From Prochlorococcus sp. AG-402-B05 (lineage in GTDB: Bacteria; Cyanobacteriota; Cyanobacteriia; PCC-6307; Cyanobiaceae): DNA of 64,000 bases. A model generated the notes under the pieces. The model saw only the letters and a list, made by a program, of their open reading frames with translations. It ran no database searches and was not told the origin of the DNA. The stretch is from the NCBI GenBank assembly GCA_003279635.1, contig QCHK01000003.1, positions 62,001 through 126,000 of the forward strand, read 5' to 3'. Positions 13,224-29,723 of this stretch are shown piece after piece (within the stretch, counting starts at the first letter, position 1; each line of letters opens with the position of its first letter). The translations under genes were made by a program, and so were the position numbers.

Positions 13224-13265
13224 ATTTAATTAGTAAGTATTCAGTTGCAGCAGTGGTTTTCATAA

Positions 13266-13300
13266 GTTAGAATGGATTTAATTCTAACTCTTGTTCTAAC
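13266..13300. repeat. GTTAGAAT/ATTCTAAC repeat cluster, left end of the element (candidate attL or integrase operator)
   Basis: GTTAGAAT at 13266-13273, its exact inverse ATTCTAAC at 13281-13288, and GTTCTAAC at 13293-13300, ending 6 nt before the integrase ATG. The same unit recurs at 18376-18415 at the other end of the element. These could be recombinase core or arm sites, or an autoregulatory operator. Confidence 0.5.
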
Positions 13301-13306
13301 TTTCCC

Positions 13307-14896
13307 ATGCCAAAGCTACTGGAAAAGTTCAAAGTATTAGGTGGTAGAGCTGAGGTATTAAGATACGAGAACCTTCCTAATAGTTGGTATTATCGAGAGA
13401 AAATACCAGATGAGAAGGCATATCGTACAAGAAAAATATCTAATGTAAGCAATAAAGAAGAAGCTGAAGATGCTGCCATACTGATCTATGCAGAGCTAAG
13501 TTCTCAACATGTTAAACCCAAAGAAAAGAGAATAAAAAGAACTGAAAAGATAAAAGATACGGCTAATCAATCCTTACCTGTTCCTTCTCCTCGTCTTAGT
13601 GCGAATGCTGCAGATCATGGGAGTGGTAGAGGTGGTGCTTATTTATTAACTGATCGAAGCAAACCAGAGCGATCAGGTAAGTTTATTAATCGAAAACGTA
13701 GAGGTGTTCCCATTGATCAGGCTATTGATGATTATATTGAGAAATTGAGAGATAGAGTCGAAGCGAATGAGCTTGGCGAGTTAACTTTTAGAGACTTAAT
13801 GCAAACTTATATTGTACATTTAAAGCCCTATTGTTTCCTTGAGGGTATTAAATCAACAGCAGATATTAACCTTGAAAGCTTTCACAACTATCTTCTCTAT
13901 CGTAAGGGTTGCTCGAAGCTGACAAAAAACAAAGAAGCCAGACAGATTAAGGGATTTGTTGATAATTACTTATCACCTAAGAAACTAATTGATGTGGATG
14001 TAGCAACAAGTAAGAAGCTCATCCCACTATCAAAAGTTAAGCAAGAAGATCTTGATGCTAACCCTGCGATCAATGAAGAGGATTGGACAAAGATCAACAG
14101 TTGGATTAGAAATGTCTACGTTAAAAATACAGATAGTAATCTCAGATCAAGCGTTCATTATTGGAGATATCTTTTCTGGCACTTCACATTGATCATGAAG
14201 AACAGTGGAGCTAGGCCAAATGAATTATTAAACCTACGTTGGAAAGATATTCAGATTGAATATGTAGTTAGGATTAGTCAATCTAAGAAGGAACAAGAGA
14301 TTGAAGAGTTAGAAGCAGAAGGCATTGATGTGCTTGGAGAGGATGAAGATTTTGATGCTAATGCTTGGGCTGTTAATCCAGAAGCATTTGGTAGAGAGGA
14401 AAGACTAATTGCACATATCTTCATTAAGTCTTCCAAGACAGGTAAAACAAGAGAGGTTCCAACTAATTTAGGTAAAGCTTTCAAGCGATTTAAAGAGTAT
14501 CAAGAATTATATATCAAAGAAAATAAATTAGATATAGAAATCACTCCTACTACTTTAATCTTTGGTAATCCACATAAATACTATTCAAAATATACATATC
14601 CAAACTTCACATCTTCTTGGCATAAGTGTATGCAAGAACTAAGTGGACAACTCAAGGGTCATAAGTTTAGTGATAGACCCTACACGATCTATTCTATGAG
14701 ATCAACTTTTGTCGAAGCGGGATTACTTAAGGGTATGGATGTATTCCTATTGAGTCGTATTTGTGGTCATTCAGTTGATATGTTGCAGAGACATTATGAA
14801 CGGATTGATGTGAAAGAAAGAGCCGAAGAAATAACGAAGATCAGCTATGGAAGTAAGAAAAAGAAGATCAATGAAATAGATTTATTCAGTAACTAA
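13307..14896 (+). CDS. Tyrosine recombinase / integrase
   Basis: 529 aa. The C-terminal catalytic domain shows Arg303 (NSGARPNELLNLRW), a Lys beta-hairpin (KSSKTGKTREVPT), Arg465 in YSMRSTF, His488 in CGHS and nucleophile Tyr497 in RHYERID. The full catalytic set is present, with Tyr in the position often held by His before Arg465. An acidic insertion rich in Glu/Asp (about residues 330-360) interrupts the catalytic domain. The N-terminal part is basic and probably arm-site binding; the middle helical part is the core-binding domain. ATG at 13307 lies directly after GTTAGAAT-type repeats. It overlaps the convergent small HTH gene by 15 nt. Most likely it integrates and excises this element. 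Confidence 0.93.
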   Translation: MPKLLEKFKVLGGRAEVLRYENLPNSWYYREKIPDEKAYRTRKISNVSNKEEAEDAAILIYAELSSQHVKPKEKRIKRTEKIKDTANQSLPVPSPRLSANAADHGSGRGGAYLLTDRSKPERSGKFINRKRRGVPIDQAIDDYIEKLRDRVEANELGELTFRDLMQTYIVHLKPYCFLEGIKSTADINLESFHNYLLYRKGCSKLTKNKEARQIKGFVDNYLSPKKLIDVDVATSKKLIPLSKVKQEDLDANPAINEEDWTKINSWIRNVYVKNTDSNLRSSVHYWRYLFWHFTLIMKNSGARPNELLNLRWKDIQIEYVVRISQSKKEQEIEELEAEGIDVLGEDEDFDANAWAVNPEAFGREERLIAHIFIKSSKTGKTREVPTNLGKAFKRFKEYQELYIKENKLDIEITPTTLIFGNPHKYYSKYTYPNFTSSWHKCMQELSGQLKGHKFSDRPYTIYSMRSTFVEAGLLKGMDVFLLSRICGHSVDMLQRHYERIDVKERAEEITKISYGSKKKKINEIDLFSN

Positions 14897-15073
14897 TTCT
14901 TTTCTAACTCGATAAACAGATACTCCCAAACGATCTGAAATTGATCTATTAGAGTTACCTTCATGACGTAATCGAAAGATAGATTCACGTTCAGATTCAC
15001 AGAACCGAACAACGATAATGAAAGGCACAAGCAGTACGACGACTACCCATACCGCAAGGCATGTGTAAGACAT
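14882..15073 (-). CDS. Small membrane-anchored protein with a C-terminal helix-turn-helix-like segment
   Basis: From the ATG at 15073 the product is 63 aa: one N-terminal membrane span (AVWVVVVLLVPFIIVV) followed by ESERESIFRLRHEGNSNRSI and SDRLGVSVYRVRKEL, which reads like a compact helix-turn-helix. A longer form from TTG at 15130 (82 aa) is possible but adds only polar residues. It is convergent with the integrase and overlaps it by 15 nt. A membrane-tethered regulator of excision is conceivable but unproven. Confidence 0.55.
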   Translation of the reverse strand: MSYTCLAVWVVVVLLVPFIIVVRFCESERESIFRLRHEGNSNRSISDRLGVSVYRVRKELVTE

Positions 15074-15227
15074 TTGATTTGATGAGTGTGTTAAATGCTT
15101 TTGTTGTCGGTTCTTGACGAGATAAACCAACTAACAGCTAAAAAAATCATAACTTGTAGATATATGCACAGAAAGCTCTCTAAAACAATTAACCCATTAC
15201 AACAACACTTCCACATCAAACAACTAA

Positions 15228-15475
15228 ATGGTCACTACATCACAAGTATCTAAGCACATAAGCTACACAGTCAACGCACGTCTAGACAACAGTGCTTATA
15301 CATCCATGATATCCCTCATGAATTTGCAGGTTATCCAGATGTTTCCTCATTCTTCAGAGAAGCAGTCTTAGTCAAATGTAAATACCTTGCGAATGAAGTA
15401 GCAGTAATGATGTAAGACAGAGTATTAGACAACAAACATTCAAACTACAGACCGATTGAATACCTATCTAAGTAA
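15228..15475 (+). pseudogene. Broken ribbon-helix-helix (CopG/Arc-like) regulator
   Basis: Frame 1 from ATG 15228 gives VNARLDNSAYTSMISLM, a typical RHH beta-strand plus helix A. The continuation EFAGYPDVSSFFREAVLVK, a typical turn and helix B, is in the -1 frame, entered around 15320. That second frame meets TAA at 15413 and then continues with coding-like sequence (DRVLDNKHSNYRPIEYLSK) to TAA at 15473. One frameshift plus one nonsense codon make it a likely pseudogene. I see no slippery heptamer to support programmed frameshifting. Confidence 0.55.
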
Positions 15476-15484
15476 TTATCTGAC

Positions 15485-15667
15485 TTACAAATTATTTAAT
15501 TTATTAAACCAGTAGTCAACATCGAACTTATCTTGATCTACTGAATCATATAGAAACTCAGAAGTATTAGCTAATACTTTTGCAACCTCTACTCGAACAA
15601 CAGGGAAATTCAGACTAACCAATATCAAGACTAGGAGAGTTAAATTACCCCAGACAAAACCTCTCAT
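15485..15667 (-). CDS. Small signal-anchored protein, element cargo, unknown
   Basis: 60 aa, ATG start. An N-terminal hydrophobic helix (LTLLVLILVSLNFPVV) is followed by a short polar tail ending DQDKFDVDYWFNKLNNL. It could be a signal-anchored or secreted small protein. No family recognised. It faces the broken RHH gene tail to tail, 9 nt away. Confidence 0.45.
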   Translation of the reverse strand: MRGFVWGNLTLLVLILVSLNFPVVRVEVAKVLANTSEFLYDSVDQDKFDVDYWFNKLNNL

Positions 15668-15862
15668 CGTTATCTAAATAAATATCTTGATATTATCAAT
15701 TAAAAATTAATTAACAACAAACGATAACTAACTAAACAACTATGAGAAGGTAGAATCATTATCCACTACCTATCAAGGTATCTAGTCGAATAACAATCAA
15801 TGAAGAAGAAAGGAACAAACTGATCACTACTTACAATCAACAATAGAGAATTAAAATCATGT

Positions 15863-16045
15863 CTAGAACTTAGGCATCTTGAAGGCATATTTTTCGTCTA
15901 CTTTATTTGTTTCTTTTTTTTCTTGTGTTCCCCATTCTTTATATTTTATAACTGGAGAATTCTTCAGGGTTTTCTTTATGGTACTTAAACTATTAGCTAT
16001 GTATAAAAGAAGAATTACTATGATTGATAATAAAAAAGTTATCAT
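15863..16045 (-). CDS. Small single-span membrane protein, element cargo, unknown
   Basis: 60 aa: a strong N-terminal membrane helix (MITFLLSIIVILLLYIANSL) then a basic, Lys-rich tail. The ATG at 16045 lies 5 nt downstream, on the minus strand, of the decamer TATACGCCTT that recurs once elsewhere in the element. That suggests a promoter very close to the start or a leaderless message. The 195 nt beyond its stop (15668-15862) hold no ORF I would support. Confidence 0.45.
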   Translation of the reverse strand: MITFLLSIIVILLLYIANSLSTIKKTLKNSPVIKYKEWGTQEKKETNKVDEKYAFKMPKF

Positions 16046-16050
16046 CAGTT

Positions 16051-16060
16051 AAGGCGTATA
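16051..16060 (-). repeat. Decamer TATACGCCTT, copy 1 of 2 (candidate promoter/operator)
   Basis: On the minus strand TATACGCCTT lies just upstream of the 60-aa gene at 15863-16045. An identical decamer is at 17913-17922. TATACG could serve as a -10-like box. Confidence 0.35.
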
Positions 16061-16413
16061 CTTGTTCCATATTAGTTAATATTTAAGATAATTATCTATA
16101 TATTAAAATATATTATTTCTAATTAAAATCTTTCATGCTAACCCTAAGACCAATTAACTAATGTCATAAAACTTTGTAGATCTATATAAGTTTAGATTGA
16201 AATAATTTTATAATTGTTTCCTCCAATAATAAAAGACTAGAAATGCATAGTTTAATTTGCTTGAGACGATAGCAAGTATGCTCCCTGCAGGTATGTTAAA
16301 CGATATTAGTTAGTTTTTTTAGTGTCTTTTGTTGATAATCTAAGCTAACCAACTACAGAGCAACGGCAAACTAGAAGGATACTAACTGATTTTTATTATT
16401 GGAAGATACATAA

Positions 16414-16480
16414 GACCAAGCAGGAGCCAGAATGTGTGGGTGGCACGTAATCTGACAAGGTTCGAATCCTAGTATGGTCG
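16414..16480 (+). other. tRNA-like remnant within a 437-nt gene-poor stretch
   Basis: The segment ends GGTTCGAATCC then TATGGTCG, a normal T-loop and 3' acceptor layout. A 5' partner GACCAAG at 16414-16420 pairs with TATGGTC at 5 of 7 positions plus one wobble. The T-stem has one mismatch, and no proper D-arm or anticodon arm fits the 67 nt, so it is not a functional tRNA. It may be a tRNA-derived attachment site or a decayed tRNA. The surrounding gap 16046-16482 otherwise contains only AT-rich sequence and the decamer at 16051. Confidence 0.4.
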
Positions 16481-16482
16481 TT

Positions 16483-16701
16483 TTATTTTGCACCAAAGCA
16501 ATGATTGTAAGCTAGCTTATATTTATCTCTTTTAGCTTTTAGCTTTTCTAGTTTTTTAATTGTATAACATTCTTTCTTTGAGATGCCTACTTCTTTTGAC
16601 TTGTAACCATTTTCACTCCTAGCCATGTGAACCCAATCAACTGCATTAACATTTGTAGGTGCTACCAAAGCAGCAAGGAGCGGAAGAATAAAGTATCTCA
16701 T
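16483..16701 (-). CDS. Small secreted protein with two cysteines, unknown
   Basis: 72 aa with a clean signal peptide (MRYFILPLLAALVAPTNVNA, probable cleavage after residue 20). The mature 52-residue part is Lys-rich, with cysteines at 45 and 68 that could form one disulfide. It starts 2 nt after the stop of the 55-aa gene, so it is the third gene of a tight unit led by the 216-aa gene. No family recognised; small exported cargo proteins on mobile elements can be lectin-, toxin- or adhesion-like, but nothing here decides that. Confidence 0.6.
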   Translation of the reverse strand: MRYFILPLLAALVAPTNVNAVDWVHMARSENGYKSKEVGISKKECYTIKKLEKLKAKRDKYKLAYNHCFGAK

Positions 16702-16703
16702 TA

Positions 16704-16871
16704 TTACCTGTACTTGTATATATACAATCTAGCTTCTGAGCTATCTGGTCTAGGTGCTGGTTCATACTTCTCCATCAACCTGTTAGTAATGTCAAAGTCA
16801 AATGAACGGAATGATTCAAGTTCATTGTTGATTACCTGAAGAAGGTCCGATGAAGTGGTTGGTGTTTTCAT
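16704..16871 (-). CDS. Small protein (55 aa), middle gene of the element's tight operon
   Basis: ATG at 16871 shares one base with the TAA of the 216-aa gene (TAATG). The frame runs 55 codons to TAA at 16704-16706 and is followed 2 nt later by the secreted-protein gene. The peptide is polar with an acidic helix (SSDLLQVINNELESFRSFDF) and a C-terminus rich in Tyr/Arg. The exact stop-start overlap on one side and the 2-nt gap on the other are strong support for a real gene. Function unknown. Confidence 0.6.
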   Translation of the reverse strand: MKTPTTSSDLLQVINNELESFRSFDFDITNRLMEKYEPAPRPDSSEARLYIYKYR

Positions 16872-17521
16872 TACTTAACGAACTCCTTAGCTTTAGATAG
16901 TTTGTCTTTAAGATCCGCGTTCTCTTTTTTGAGCTTTATGTTCTCCATAACTAAAGAAGTGAAGGATGATAGTTTTTCTTCGTCAGTCTTTTTGCTTGCA
17001 ACCACCTCGGCTTGAGCTAGCAGATCATTGGTTGATTTCTTTGCCGCTTTCTTTCTGAGTAGCTTATTTAAATCTCCTTCAGAGAATCCCTTGCCTTCTT
17101 GAATGGCGCTAATAGCCTTTACCCTTTGCCCTGAGTCTGCGCTTCCAATCTTTGCCAGTGTCCTAGCTGATACCTGAGACAAAGCGTCTTGAGGTATGTC
17201 CGTATTTGACAGCCATGTCTCATAAGCAGTAGCCAGATCTCTTGCATTTCTGCCACTCATAGAAAGAACACCTGAGTCAGTGAGTGCTTTCCAATTCTTA
17301 TTCTTAACGTCCTTCTTGATATCTACCAATGCTCTGGCTGCTGCGTAAATAGCGTTTCCTGCCGTCCCTAGGGCTTCGTTGCAGTCAATGACCTTGCTCT
17401 TTACGTACCGGACCTGAGAAGCAGCCAAGCCCTTTACGGACTCATCATTCAGATCAACTGCTTCAAGCTCGTCTATTGAGTAATCTCCAATACTTGCTGG
17501 CTCTATGGTTGATGTGGTCAA
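16871..17521 (-). CDS. Helical, coiled-coil-ended protein of the element, unknown (possible DNA-binding or partition role)
   Basis: 216 aa, soluble and mostly helical. An acidic N-terminus is followed by a helical block (about 30-130) with GRNARDLATAYETWL and ISAIQEGKGFSEGDLNKLLRKKAAKK. The end (about 180-216) is a charged coiled coil (MENIKLKKENADLKDKLSKAK). The middle resembles helix-turn-helix-containing phage or partition proteins only in general character; I do not recognise the family. ATG at 17521 heads a three-gene unit (216, 55 and 72 aa). A 6-2-6 palindrome 55 nt upstream is a candidate operator. Base composition is visibly less AT-rich than the backbone. Confidence 0.75.
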   Translation of the reverse strand: MTTSTIEPASIGDYSIDELEAVDLNDESVKGLAASQVRYVKSKVIDCNEALGTAGNAIYAAARALVDIKKDVKNKNWKALTDSGVLSMSGRNARDLATAYETWLSNTDIPQDALSQVSARTLAKIGSADSGQRVKAISAIQEGKGFSEGDLNKLLRKKAAKKSTNDLLAQAEVVASKKTDEEKLSSFTSLVMENIKLKKENADLKDKLSKAKEFVK

Positions 17522-17575
17522 TACATTAAGTCGAATAGAGTCAAGTTACCAACTGTTTCCGAGCTCGTCCATAGG

Positions 17576-17589
17576 AATACAAATGTATT
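17576..17589. promoter_or_regulatory. Palindrome AATACA-AA-TGTATT upstream of the element operon
   Basis: A perfect 6-2-6 inverted repeat 55 nt upstream of the ATG of the 216-aa gene. Its layout resembles a repressor operator, including LexA-type sites with TGTAnT half-sites, but it is not a clear match to the cyanobacterial LexA consensus. Confidence 0.35.
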
Positions 17590-17626
17590 AGTATGTTAGA
17601 TCTTTTTATGGGTATCTTTTTGTTCC

Positions 17627-17836
17627 TTATCTCAGGAGAGGCATTGTTAATAACTCGTCAACGCAAACTCCCTCATTCAACCATTCTCTTAACTCTTGTC
17701 CTATTGCTTTTTGGTCTTTAATGCTTAGTCCTTCAGATCTTTCCATAACTACTGACATTGAATCAGAGATAAGGTCCTCCATTTCTGGGAACTTAATATT
17801 CAATAACCTGAATCTTATAACCCTCCAATAGTACAC
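17627..17836 (-). CDS. Small hypothetical protein of the element
   Basis: 69 aa from a GTG start at 17836; ATG codons inside the frame would give shorter forms. The sequence is helical, with EMEDLISDSMSVVMERSEGLSIKDQK and AIGQELREWLNEGVCVDELL. No membrane span or known motif. It is separated by 105 nt from the 216-aa gene downstream. Weak start, so confidence is moderate at best. Confidence 0.4.
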   Translation of the reverse strand: MYYWRVIRFRLLNIKFPEMEDLISDSMSVVMERSEGLSIKDQKAIGQELREWLNEGVCVDELLTMPLLR

Positions 17837-17912
17837 GATGATTTTTAAGTCCGTTAATTGGGTGCTGATACTGCCATAATCCTGAGCCTTTAGATTTTGA
17901 AAAAAATTTCAG

Positions 17913-17922
17913 AAGGCGTATA
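17913..17922 (-). repeat. Decamer TATACGCCTT, copy 2 of 2
   Basis: Identical to the decamer at 16051-16060. Here it partly overlaps the palindrome GTATA-ACG-TATAC at 17918-17930 and lies 77 nt upstream of the GTG of the 69-aa ORF on the same strand. Confidence 0.35.
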
Positions 17923-18094
17923 ACGTATACAATAAGGATTAAAATACCCCTCCATACCCCTTTTCATTCTCCTCTTTCTATTTTGAGATTTGCTTATTTG
18001 TGTCCAGTTTTCTGTCCAAATTGTTGTTTTTAAGATCTCCATTATTCAATCCTAATTTAAGCACATATTCTGCCACTGGCTTTTTAGTGACTTT

Positions 18095-18119
18095 CATAAC
18101 TGTTCATAGAGCAGTTATG
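18095..18119. repeat. Perfect 8-bp hairpin CATAACTG / CAGTTATG
   Basis: Inverted repeat with a 9-nt loop, not followed by a T-run on either strand, so an operator, attachment-arm or RNA hairpin is more likely than a terminator. Confidence 0.4.
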
Positions 18120-18166
18120 CATGTTTTTGGGAATAAAATCTAGTTTTTATATGTTTTATATTTGAA

Positions 18167-18181
18167 AAATGATAATCATTT
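18167..18181. promoter_or_regulatory. Fur-box-like palindrome AAATGATAATCATTT
   Basis: A perfect 7-1-7 palindrome containing TGATAATCATT, which matches the core of the bacterial Fur consensus (GATAATGATAATCATTATC). It lies 41 nt upstream of a Shine-Dalgarno-led ATG at 18222. If bound by Fur, it would place the right end of the element under iron control. Binding is inferred only. Confidence 0.45.
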
Positions 18182-18375
18182 CAATTTAAAGAATTTTTGA
18201 CTTAAGGAAAGAGAAGGAGTCATGGCTCTACCCACCCCCTTCTCAATCCTTGCTAGCTAGCATATTTATTGTGCAACACAAGTGTATCAATCGCGACCTC
18301 TTTTGCGTTGTTACAAATATGCCTCTCAATAAGCCGCCACAGTTGAGAACTATGCTCTCCCGTCTTGAGCGATCT

Positions 18376-18415
18376 GTTAGAATGTCTTCAGATTCTAAAC
18401 AAAGTTTATTCTAAC
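18376..18415. repeat. GTTAGAAT/ATTCTAAC repeat cluster, right end of the element (candidate attR)
   Basis: GTTAGAAT at 18376-18383, ATTCTAAA at 18392-18399 and ATTCTAAC at 18408-18415, in the same order as the cluster next to the integrase start. The exact shared direct repeat is GTTAGAATG (9 nt). Confidence 0.5.
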
Positions 18416-18508
18416 TTGTTTAGATCTAACCTCTATATTATCTTAAAAATACAGCTATAGAATTAAACCTTATAGTTTAAATTTAACTAAAAGAATTTTT
18501 AAATAACA

Positions 18509-27127: not shown

Positions 27128-27156
27128 CTGGCAAGGGTAAGTTCTTAATGTTGTAA

Positions 27157-27228
27157 TCCTCGGTAGCTCAGCGGTAGAGCGATCGGCTGTTAACCGATTG
27201 GTCGCAGGTTCGAATCCCGCCCGGGGAG
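27157..27228 (+). tRNA. trnN: tRNA-Asn (GTT)
   Basis: 72 nt folding as a normal cloverleaf: acceptor TCCTCGG with CCGGGGA, D-arm AGCTCAGCGGTAGAGC, anticodon stem GGCTGTTAACC region with anticodon GTT, and T-arm GCAGGTTCGAATCCCGC (one mismatch). Discriminator base G; CCA is not encoded, as usual in cyanobacteria. A degraded copy of its 3' end occurs at 28542-28564. Confidence 0.95.
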
Positions 27229-27253
27229 TTTATTAGTTCAATCAGAATCAATC

Positions 27254-27281
27254 AAGAGAGTCCTTGAACGCTCTTTTTTTA
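27254..27281 (+). terminator. Rho-independent-like terminator after tRNA-Asn
   Basis: AAGAG ... CTCTT stem (extended AAGAGAG/CGCTCTT with one mismatch) and a loop of about 8-12 nt, followed directly by a T-run and located 26 nt downstream of the tRNA. Confidence 0.6.
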
Positions 27282-27297
27282 TTGGTATGATTGGTTT

Positions 27298-27396
27298 TTG
27301 GGTGTTTCTGATGCTTCAGAGGGTTTCAGTAATCTTCATAAGCAATTATTCAATCCTGAACAATTGCTGAATCATTATTTTAAAAATACTGAATAA
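27298..27396 (+). pseudogene. Short gene relic in the tRNA-Asn region
   Basis: A 32-codon frame (open from about 27278, TTG at 27298) with protein-like content (DASEGFSNLHKQLFNPEQLL). No ATG or ribosome site. Best read as a fragment left by decay rather than a functional gene. Confidence 0.3.
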
Positions 27397-27485
27397 CTCT
27401 AGATATCTATGTTTTCTAGATGTACTATTAAAAGATAATTTTGTAGGTTTAACTTTAAATCAATGATTTAACTGATATATAAATT

Positions 27486-28064
27486 ATGGATCGAAAAAAG
27501 ATTTTCTTATTGATATCGTTTTTAATCGGAAGTTTTACGACAATTGGAAAAATTGAAGCAGGATTAAAAGATGAATATGAAAAAAATAGTGAGTGCAATT
27601 GGAAAACTGCTCAATTTCAGATAATTAAGAAAAACCCTTCTAATACTGAAGAAAGAATTTGTATTACCTCTGATAATAAGATTATAAGTATCGTAACTGG
27701 AACCTCTTGTGCTGCAGGGATTTGCTTGGATTATCCCGCTGAGGGACAATCTAGTTTATTAAAAGGAAAAATAGGCGAATCTGAGAGTTATACAGTTAAT
27801 AATCGAACTTGGGAAAGAGAATATGCTTCCACTTCTAATTATCTTAGTGAATGGGATATTGAAGGCAATGATTTAATTTTATATAAATGTCCAACAGAAC
27901 TCTTCAGTAAAAAATGTTCAGGACAAACAATCAGAAAAGTAATGGGAACTCATAGAACTAAAATAAGTAATGGAACAACTTATCTTTATTATCTCGATCT
28001 AATTCTTAATGCTGGTACAAAGGGTAAGTTTGAGGAGGGAATACTTTATGCCGGAAAATTATAG
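27486..28064 (+). CDS. Secreted hypothetical protein with six cysteines
   Basis: 192 aa with a signal peptide (MDRKKIFLLISFLIGSFTTI then likely cleavage near residue 25). The mature chain is beta-rich with six cysteines (C37, C59, C75, C80 and two in YKCPTELFSKKCSG), which could form three disulfides. Not recognised. It sits between tRNA-Asn and the degraded tRNA-Asn copy, among gene fragments, so it may be cargo of a decayed insertion or a lineage-specific gene. Confidence 0.6.
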   Translation: MDRKKIFLLISFLIGSFTTIGKIEAGLKDEYEKNSECNWKTAQFQIIKKNPSNTEERICITSDNKIISIVTGTSCAAGICLDYPAEGQSSLLKGKIGESESYTVNNRTWEREYASTSNYLSEWDIEGNDLILYKCPTELFSKKCSGQTIRKVMGTHRTKISNGTTYLYYLDLILNAGTKGKFEEGILYAGKL

Positions 28065-28243
28065 AGAATGATCAACTTCATCACTTTCATTCCACAGGAT
28101 TATTTTACCGATCACTAATGAAATGGGAGTTAGGGAGGAAAGATAGTGCTTTCTCTGATATGAGAGAAGCATTGTCTTTAGTTCCCTCAGGTTCATCAGA
28201 TGAAAAAAAGATTCAAAACTTCTACAAGGATGCTTGTTCATAA
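28032..28243 (+). pseudogene. C-terminal relic of a TPR-like protein
   Basis: A frame open from 28032 to TAA at 28241-28243, starting inside the preceding CDS. It reads GLFYRSLMKWELGRKDSAFS and MREALSLVPSGSSDEKKIQ, the shape of a final tetratricopeptide unit. The only ATG (28118) would give 41 aa without a ribosome site. Likely a truncated gene. Confidence 0.4.
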
Positions 28244-28349
28244 AGATTAGTGCTTATTTTTCTAAGATATTTAAGAGTTCAATCAAAAAATCTTGCAGAT
28301 TGATAATTCATAACTGAACTAGTAAATAAGAGTTCTCCTTTGGTTTGAT

Positions 28350-28442
28350 TTGGAAAATCCTTCCTTTAATCCTCCTGTCAAAATTCTGCTTGCTAATTGG
28401 GTTGAAGGGAGCAGAGTTGAGCATTCAGCGGTGCATCAATGA
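28350..28442 (+). pseudogene. Short gene relic (30 codons)
   Basis: TTG 28350 to TGA 28442. The content FDLENPSFNPPVKILLANWV then EGSRVEHSAVHQ looks like genuine protein sequence but is too short and lacks a good start. Part of the cluster of fragments between tRNA-Asn and its degraded copy. Confidence 0.3.
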
Positions 28443-28925
28443 TGCTTCTTTTTCCTTTTTCCTTCTATTACTGAACAATGAACTGACTTTTCCCCGAATA
28501 TCGCCCCCCATAAGCAGTCACTACAAGTCAGGAAGAAACGATTCGACTCCTGCACGGGGAGTTTTAAAGGCAAATGTAAATTTGTTGATCCATCAGAATA
28601 GATTATCTGTTGACTTTTGAGTTTCAAAAAACTATTTCTTCGTTTAGAAGATTAAAATAAATCTTATAAAATTTTTGTTAGTTTTTTTATATAAGTTTTA
28701 GAATTCCTTAACAGTAAAGCCTTGGAATCGGAAGACTTTCTAAAGACAGTGTATCGATTTTTCGCCTTTTCAGAGCTGAAAAAGTAGTGGTACTAGTTGG
28801 TCTTATCGATTAGGTCATGGAAAACCAAATTCTTCGAATTCTGCAATAAAAACAAAATTTTGAGATAATCATATGAATCTTTAGTAGCTGCTCTGTTGCG
28901 GGTACTTTTAATTTGGAAATTATTA
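28443..28925. other. Non-coding stretch ahead of rpaA, including tRNA-derived repeat
   Basis: Contains the degraded tRNA-Asn 3' end (28542-28564), AT-rich sequence, and a perfect TTTTCAG-AG-CTGAAAA palindrome at 28767-28782 that could be a control site or leader hairpin for rpaA. No CDS supported. Confidence 0.5.
28542..28564 (+). repeat. Degraded direct repeat of the tRNA-Asn 3' end (candidate att remnant)
   Basis: These 23 nt match 27209-27231 (T-loop to just past the tRNA end) at 20 of 23 positions. A tRNA at one end and a partial copy of its 3' end at the other is the classical footprint of a tRNA-targeting integrase. No integrase remains between them. Confidence 0.6.
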
Positions 28926-29723
28926 ATGAAGCCTTGTATCTTACTCATTGAAGATGACCAAGACATGAGAGATCTGGTTGCAGGGCATCTTGAGCACACC
29001 GGTTTTGATGTCCAAAAAGCAGAGGATGGCATCAAGGGCCAAGCTTTAGCTCTGCAATATGCGCCTGATTTAATCCTTCTTGATTTAATGCTTCCTAAAG
29101 TTGATGGTTTAACTCTTTGTCAGCGCTTAAGAAGAGATGAGAGAACATCAGCAATCCCTATTCTCATGATTACTGCATTAGGTGGAATCAAAGATAAAGT
29201 TACGGGTTTTAATTCTGGTGCAGATGATTACATCACAAAACCATTTGATCTTGAGGAATTACAAGTAAGGATCAAGGCGTTGCTGAGAAGAACTAATCGT
29301 GCACCACTTGGAAGTAATAATCAGCAAGAAATACTCAATTACGGCCCTCTTACACTCGTTCCTGAAAGATTTGAGGCGATATGGTTCGAATCTCCAGTTC
29401 GTTTGACTCATTTAGAATTTGAATTGCTCCATTGCTTGATGCAAAGGCATGGACAGACAGTTGCACCCTCTTTAATTCTTAAAGAAGTTTGGGGTTACGA
29501 GCCTGATGATGATATTGAGACTATTAGGGTACATGTAAGACATTTAAGAACTAAGCTCGAACCTGACCCAAGAAAACCAAGATTCATCAAAACTGTTTAT
29601 GGTGCAGGATATTGCTTGGAGTTACCAACAGGTGACAAAATAAGTGAGATTCAATCATTAATAACTCAAGCGAGAGAAACTAACTCTTTAAAAAATAATA
29701 CCGATGAAAGAGTGATTGCTTAA
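28926..29723 (+). CDS. rpaA: OmpR-family response regulator RpaA
   Basis: 265 aa from ATG 28926 ([12 protein letters not shown]); the longer TTG frame adds non-conserved residues. Receiver domain with phosphoacceptor Asp53 (LILLDLMLP) and Lys in TKPFD; winged-helix output domain with [20 protein letters not shown] and [13 protein letters not shown], diagnostic for RpaA. RpaA is the cyanobacterial circadian output regulator, phosphorylated by SasA. A long 5' region separates it from upstream genes, and its stop interlocks with that of holB (4-nt TTAA overlap). Confidence 0.92.

Follow-up and report, generated by a model that had tools for sequence, protein, structure and literature searches.

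In Dehalococcoides, genomic islands are found at the 3' end of the tRNA-like gene ssrA, where they insert at the T-loop, are marked by 20-bp direct repeats and share a conserved motif, TTCAGRSMGMRKCCA, just upstream of the repeat (PMC3146451). According to the parts of that paper drawn on here, 16 of the islands carry a serine-recombinase module and 15 are without it, and the latter were suggested to be cis-mobilizable elements (PMC3146451). Within the source sections used, these islands are the closest described case that we found. In the part of the relevant source considered here, a CIME is by definition an ICE or IME that has decayed (PMC5704250). For Prochlorococcus, the corresponding portion of a further report describes the attachment region of P-SS2 at the tRNA-Met gene of strain MIT9313, which contains 36-bp copies of tRNA-Met and transposase genes (PMC2784084).

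We analyzed a locus at tRNA-Asn in a Prochlorococcus genome of 1.76 Mb assembled in 62 contigs. The window, i.e., the whole stretch of DNA that was analyzed, is 64,000 nucleotides long and corresponds to positions 62001-126000 of contig 3; the organism presumably belongs to a low-light clade. Downstream of the tRNA lies a gene for an OmpR-type response regulator, which we take to be rpaA; its two closest relatives from named genomes come from Prochlorococcus single cells and are 84 and 90% identical over the best segment. A previous examination of the bare letters (the sequence-only reading) had claimed that a relic of a tRNA-targeted insertion lies between the two genes. The features of the locus are given below in window coordinates; G and L numbers in the text denote genomes and loci, respectively.

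27157..27228, plus strand: tRNA-Asn(GTT), intact, its 3' part being the integration target (ARAGORN; Rfam RF00005, 66.7 bits)
27209..27231, plus strand: left-hand copy of the tRNA 3' end, attL core (copy comparison)
27239..27357, plus strand: left end of the element, decayed, with terminator-like hairpin and TTCAG repeats (profile R2)
27254..27284, plus strand: terminator-like hairpin with T-run on the 3' side of the tRNA, within inserted DNA (hairpin scan)
27486..28064, plus strand: cargo ORF of 192 aa with six Cys and, by eye, a leader-like N-terminus (ORF and family scans)
28061..28240, plus strand: weakly TPR-like scrap (TPR_2, E 0.032, below cut-off)
28524..28550, plus strand: right arm, which abuts the displaced tRNA end on its 5' side and overlaps it (first of 1677 positions by leave-one-out matrix)
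28542..28564, plus strand: right copy of the tRNA 3' end with three mismatches, attR core, the displaced original end (copy comparison, alignment)
28565..28925, plus strand: host flank upstream of rpaA, retained, contiguous with the tRNA in empty-site relatives (alignments)
28926..29723, plus strand: OmpR-type response regulator (PF00072 and PF00486; likely ATG at 28926)

Duplicated tRNA end and empty sites in relatives

The last 20 bases of tRNA-Asn and the following TTT are repeated at 28542-28564 with 20 of 23 positions identical, which confirms the repeat reported by the sequence-only reading and exceeds all of 300 dinucleotide shuffles of the downstream region (best chance match, 16/23). 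When the 23-nt pattern was searched for in the whole 1.76-Mb genome with up to three mismatches, exactly two places were recovered, namely both copies, and the reversed control gave none. In an Rfam scan for an RNA gene that could account for the second copy, the gathering score was reached by the tRNA alone, and the exact 23-nt tRNA end had no matches in viral contigs. At the tRNA-Asn site itself, the 28 matching genomes of the genus show zero or one mismatch to the pattern of 27209..27231. Two marks by which tRNA-site genomic islands are recognized are thereby present: the 3' end of the tRNA recurs as a direct repeat at the far border, and, as shown next, close relatives have an empty site.

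Using window positions 27140-28934 as a query for the tRNA and the rpaA flank of relatives, we observed that in 10 genomes of the same genus (G110, G130, G146, G152, G159, G162, G175, G176, G181 and G182) the flank match begins at window position 28542 (query 1403), inside the tRNA's own 3' end. In the alignment, the tRNA 3' end of the empty genomes shares a column with the second copy of the window and is followed by the same flank. The empty site in relatives therefore indicates that 1,333 bp were inserted and that rpaA kept its upstream region. The suggestion that this region had been replaced has to be abandoned, since window positions 28542-28934 are still there (identity to G110, 86% across 393 positions) and were merely pushed away from the tRNA.

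Comparison of the spacing between tRNA-Asn and rpaA across strains, which had been proposed as a check, showed that a short, empty-site spacing is found in 13 of 24 genomes of the genus, the window included (343-381 nt in 13, 424-496 nt in three and at least 883 nt in eight); the window's own spacing is 1706 nt. All values are measured to window position 28935, codon 4 from the likely ATG at 28926, and 9 has to be subtracted for the distance to the ATG. These 24 are drawn from 41 genomes of the genus; the remainder have the two genes on separate contigs (G155, G158, G163 and G178), yielded a single one of the two genes (G167 and G183) or gave no usable match in the flank search (11 genomes). 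The relatives do not all share the same intact 1.3 kb, an outcome that the earlier note had named as adverse. For other genera of the family, 49 stretches were available, of which L174 stops short of rpaA and was dropped; among the 48 genomes counted, the spacing is at most 350 nt in 25, 351-600 nt in four and more than 600 nt in 19, reaching 11089 nt. A further 18 loci, partly from the same genomes, gave a spacing in 15 cases (203-828 nt). Gaps longer than 600 nt number 27, eight in the 24 congeners and 19 in the 48 genomes of other genera. We refer to the 19 as enlarged gaps and not as proven insertions, because empty sites were demonstrated for the window's genus only and five of them come from a single genus, g18, which has an ORF beside rpaA in common.

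Different DNA occupies the same site in other genomes, in some cases with its own displaced copy of the tRNA end. When at most six mismatches were allowed, without indels, a second copy could be recognized in seven of the 27 gaps longer than 600 nt (three mismatches each in the window, G151 and G177, four in G017 and G136, five in G095 and six in G026) and in one of six gaps of 400-600 nt (G164, three mismatches). Absence of tRNA-like matches from island borders elsewhere, the second outcome feared at the outset, did not occur. No second copy with six or fewer mismatches was detected in 20 of the 27 gaps, and some large gaps therefore need not be such insertions. Small scars in G056, G164 and G169 resemble nearly deleted elements.

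The claim of a tRNA-targeted insertion is thus borne out by the empty sites and by the different DNA at the same site in relatives. A second copy that is short and imperfect might also arise by partial tandem duplication of the tRNA or by chance similarity around an old spacer, but the empty sites, the presence of other DNA at the same point elsewhere and the shuffles make this highly improbable. We conclude that the 1,333 bp from the T-loop of tRNA-Asn to the second copy are very probably an integrated and now decayed cargo element.

A tree built from rpaA and the upstream ABC gene joins the window to G110, G130, G181 and G182 with support of 1.000, and these four nearest relatives all carry the empty site. 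Filled genomes are dispersed over the tree, several of them on weakly supported branches. Because the window groups with empty relatives and the filled genomes are dispersed, its insertion is most likely a recent gain in this lineage, as far as these two genes indicate. An ancestral insert that was later lost in the relatives was judged unlikely from the same tree.

Left and right ends of the element

Several insertions have a terminator-like hairpin after the tRNA, followed by TTCAG repeats that in places are exactly 10 nt apart. In four congeners, plain BLAST matches continue into the window's insert for 52-76 nt beyond query 89, where the tRNA ends, and stop at query 165 in G151, 159 in G178, 151 in G163 and 141 in G158. 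The sequence GCATTCAGGAGT, with up to three mismatches on the plus strand, occurs 22 times in 3867 nt of ends versus 8 times in 15494 nt of interiors, an enrichment that is partly circular because the sequence was picked from these same ends. Empty gaps gave one occurrence in 4769 nt, and the 64-kb window as a whole has 24; its insert has a single plus-strand match. We claim no count for a difference in terminators between filled and empty sites; a simple scan calls weak hairpins at empty sites too.

A left-end profile, R2, was built from five other genomes with the window left out, and its best place in the 64-kb window is 27239-27357 (22.4 bits, E 4.7e-6; next best, 9.5 bits). R2 matched 18 of 41 genomes, and one weak match (E 0.008) is at the empty site of G086. 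Thirteen matches are located away from the tRNA-Asn site: nine are right after tRNA-Thr(GGT) (L276, L277, L278, L280, L281, L284, L286, L290 and L293), one comes after a gene that was called tRNA-Leu and is arranged likewise, and three have no called tRNA in the locus. One of the tRNA-Thr(GGT) left ends belongs to the window's own genome (contig 18). Judging from these profile matches, common descent of the left ends at tRNA-Asn and tRNA-Thr is likely; it falls short of proof because the R2 match is partly terminator sequence, which is possibly convergent.

At the opposite end, several insertions share a similar arm, about GCATTCAGGAGYAAYTNACTCAAATC, directly 5' of the displaced tRNA end. When scored with a leave-one-out weight matrix, the junction arm ranked first within its own gap in seven of eight cases, a test that is favored by the fact that the arms were located by eye from the junctions. 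The window arm scored 18.9 bits versus 8.8 bits for the next best of 1677 positions, and the G095 arm failed (rank 327 of 3254). The G164 arm alone, used as a probe, ranked the junction at the top in G056, G174, G151 and G136 and, with 15 of 27, joint top in the window; in the remaining cases the junction did not come out on top.

Profile R1 combines arm and core and contains seven sequences, the window among them. In 41 genomes it produced six strong matches, all on the rpaA side of the site, of which five are training sequences and the sixth, with E 7.4e-6, is the held-out G158; tRNA-Asn itself makes up the class of matches that follows. In 300 genomes of the family there were eight matches, seven from training and one held out (G292, where the arm is 3.8 kb after tRNA-Asn and rpaA was not found within 3.6 kb beyond). 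By these profile matches the right arm is real but, being recognized in 8 of 300 family genomes, not general. Four genomes that carry it (G056, G151, G158 and G164) are near one another on the tree with weak support, and the likeness of their arms may therefore descend in part from one event. The window holds worn versions of both shared ends, the arm as well as the terminator plus TTCAG repeats.

Cargo, recombinases and origin of the insert

The sequence-only reading placed a cysteine-rich secreted protein and at least three gene scraps between the copies. An ORF with six Cys is indeed there, and secretion of its product is a guess from the N-terminus. The scraps fared less well: the stretch 28061-28240 looks weakly TPR-like, below the cut-off, no Pfam family matched the stretch 28345-28617, and no third was found. 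Searches of Pfam, NCBIfam, PHROGs and the sequences of the PDB gave no match to the 192-aa ORF at the limits used, and its predicted structure has a mean pLDDT of 37. Relatives were detected in 7 of 150 other genomes (the best in G028, with 34% identity and E 4.3e-11, the other six with E between 8.7e-5 and 0.0033) and in none of the five congeners of this draw. No tRNAs were found in the 2.0-3.4-kb loci around these seven relatives, which therefore provide no island link for this cargo. Phage genes, the mark of a prophage or phage satellite, were not recognized: the insert DNA (searched in distant mode) and the 192-aa protein had no match in phage records, and the 60-aa scrap was likewise without a match.

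Cargo of other insertions includes a TPR protein in G151 and ORFs that, judged by sequence, are glycosyltransferase- and methyltransferase-like. In the five g18 gaps (L145, L166, L173, L178 and L181), an ORF of about 119 aa is found beside rpaA, the L145 copy being 135 aa long with an earlier start; some of these gaps contain GGTGGGGAAAT-like repeats ahead of the displaced tRNA end.

We scanned the 41 genomes of the genus and the 19 other genomes with gaps longer than 600 nt for PF00589 (E up to 0.001) and, in the genus, used the 529-aa recombinase encoded in the window as a further query. None of the 27 gaps longer than 600 nt was seen to contain a tyrosine recombinase between tRNA-Asn and rpaA; in the four congeners with split contigs (G155, G158, G163 and G178) the gap was covered in part. 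There was no tyrosine recombinase match within 27229-28541, in line with the earlier claim that no integrase lies between the copies, and the window insert was found to contain no recombinase gene of its own such as defines an autonomous element, serine recombinases having been looked for there only via family scans of ORFs. The gap of G001 encodes a serine resolvase (L134, 1546-2211; PF00239, E 2.1e-21). In 33 of the 41 genus genomes there is an ORF of 387-399 aa for a tyrosine recombinase, in many cases the sole one of its genome, which is a candidate helper; similar lengths recur among the scanned genomes of other genera.

The window contains a second clean insertion of 5.24 kb (13233-18473), and all eight congeners searched join 13232 to 18474. 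The overlap of about 16 nt at the join is a 15/16 direct repeat and coincides with the 3' end of an ORF that we take to be erpA/HesB-like. This insertion carries the 529-aa tyrosine recombinase and, from its borders, seems to be an element targeting the end of a protein gene. It also includes a scrap resembling a tRNA 3' end, ggttcgaatcctagtatggtcg, at 16424-16482, seen by eye and not called by ARAGORN. Further relatives of the 529-aa recombinase are encoded on contigs 10 and 23 of the window genome (G000), the one on contig 10 being broken by stops.

For the insert at tRNA-Asn we envisage that a circular element, itself bearing a copy of the tRNA 3' end, would have met the chromosomal tRNA-Asn gene and would have been joined to it by a site-specific recombinase, probably of the tyrosine type. 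The element's copy would restore the tRNA and bring the terminator-like hairpin (attL), and the old 3' end, preceded by the element-derived arm, would be moved to 364 nt before the likely ATG of rpaA (attR). We infer that the enzyme acted in trans or has since been lost. The mismatches of attR and the worn repeats suggest that decay took place afterwards.

The insert could instead stem from a tycheposon or prophage that was once complete and encoded a tyrosine recombinase, this gene and most of the cargo having since been deleted. The tRNA target, the terminator plus repeats and the Prochlorococcus setting agree with such an origin, as do the related left ends after tRNA-Thr(GGT) and the scars in G056, G164 and G169. 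We regard it as possible yet somewhat doubtful, given that the insert and its ORF lack phage matches and that no tyrosine recombinase is present in 27 gaps, the 7-kb and 11-kb ones included; since the gene is missing from all of them, its loss every time would be less economical than mobilization in trans.

A cargo element mobilized in trans could belong to a Prochlorococcus family of recombinase-less elements whose sole defining feature would be their ends, made up of the tRNA 3' end, a terminator, phased TTCAG repeats and the right arm, with users of tRNA-Asn, cousins at tRNA-Thr and the window as a dying member. The helper would perhaps be the tyrosine recombinase of about 390 aa present in most genomes of the genus. 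We put this forward tentatively and consider it rather unlikely as it stands, because 20 of the 27 gaps have no recognizable copy and the arm is found in 8 of 300 genomes.

The conserved flanks, and cargo that varies among strains, also fit a ready-made island swapped between strains by homologous recombination via these flanks. Such a swap, however, merely shifts the site-specific event to another strain, and no donor was found, since among the matches listed the insert DNA has none further: the 41 genus genomes match it by the left end and by pieces of 37 and 50 nt, and 151 genomes of the family show no insert match beyond the tRNA region. We therefore consider a swap improbable.

Comparison with known mobile elements

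The insertions set tRNA-Asn apart from the response regulator gene by varying distances. For gene gain and loss in streamlined ocean cyanobacteria the site is a compact, testable case, with a single tRNA gene, a clear-cut empty site, different DNA inserted there repeatedly, ends that can be recognized in some cases and, across the gaps searched, no tyrosine recombinase. The identity of the enzyme would tell whether cargo moves as enzyme-less cassettes.

Within the portions of the literature on tycheposons, Prochlorococcus islands and Prochlorococcus tRNA-Asn that were covered, which do not include the original tycheposon description, we did not find the site described. Partial tRNA copies beside a tRNA, taken as marks of mobile DNA, are shared with the P-SS2 region as it appears in the part of that report used here, whereas P-SS2 itself is a phage with an integrase (PMC2784084). 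Tycheposons, as a citing paper outlines them, are likewise tRNA-borne cargo islands of the same group of organisms. The insert shares their integration at a tRNA gene but measures 1.3 kb versus 4-200 kb and lacks the tyrosine recombinase, and we do not claim tycheposon status for it. It is closer to the CIMEs of the source section cited above, being att-flanked, with cargo only and without recognized integration or transfer genes; attL and attR are kept with worn ends, the scanned ORFs are without known family, and the likeness is drawn from sequence, with no conjugative parent known for the insert (PMC5704250). The kind of element is thus already known, and the site, the shared ends and the missing tyrosine recombinase in 27 gaps are additions to it. 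Compared with the Dehalococcoides ssrA islands, as far as the cited parts describe them, the target here is tRNA-Asn and the site yielded no tyrosine recombinase, but the repeat, the motif upstream of the repeat, the point of insertion in the T-loop and the occurrence of module-less insertions are alike (PMC3146451).
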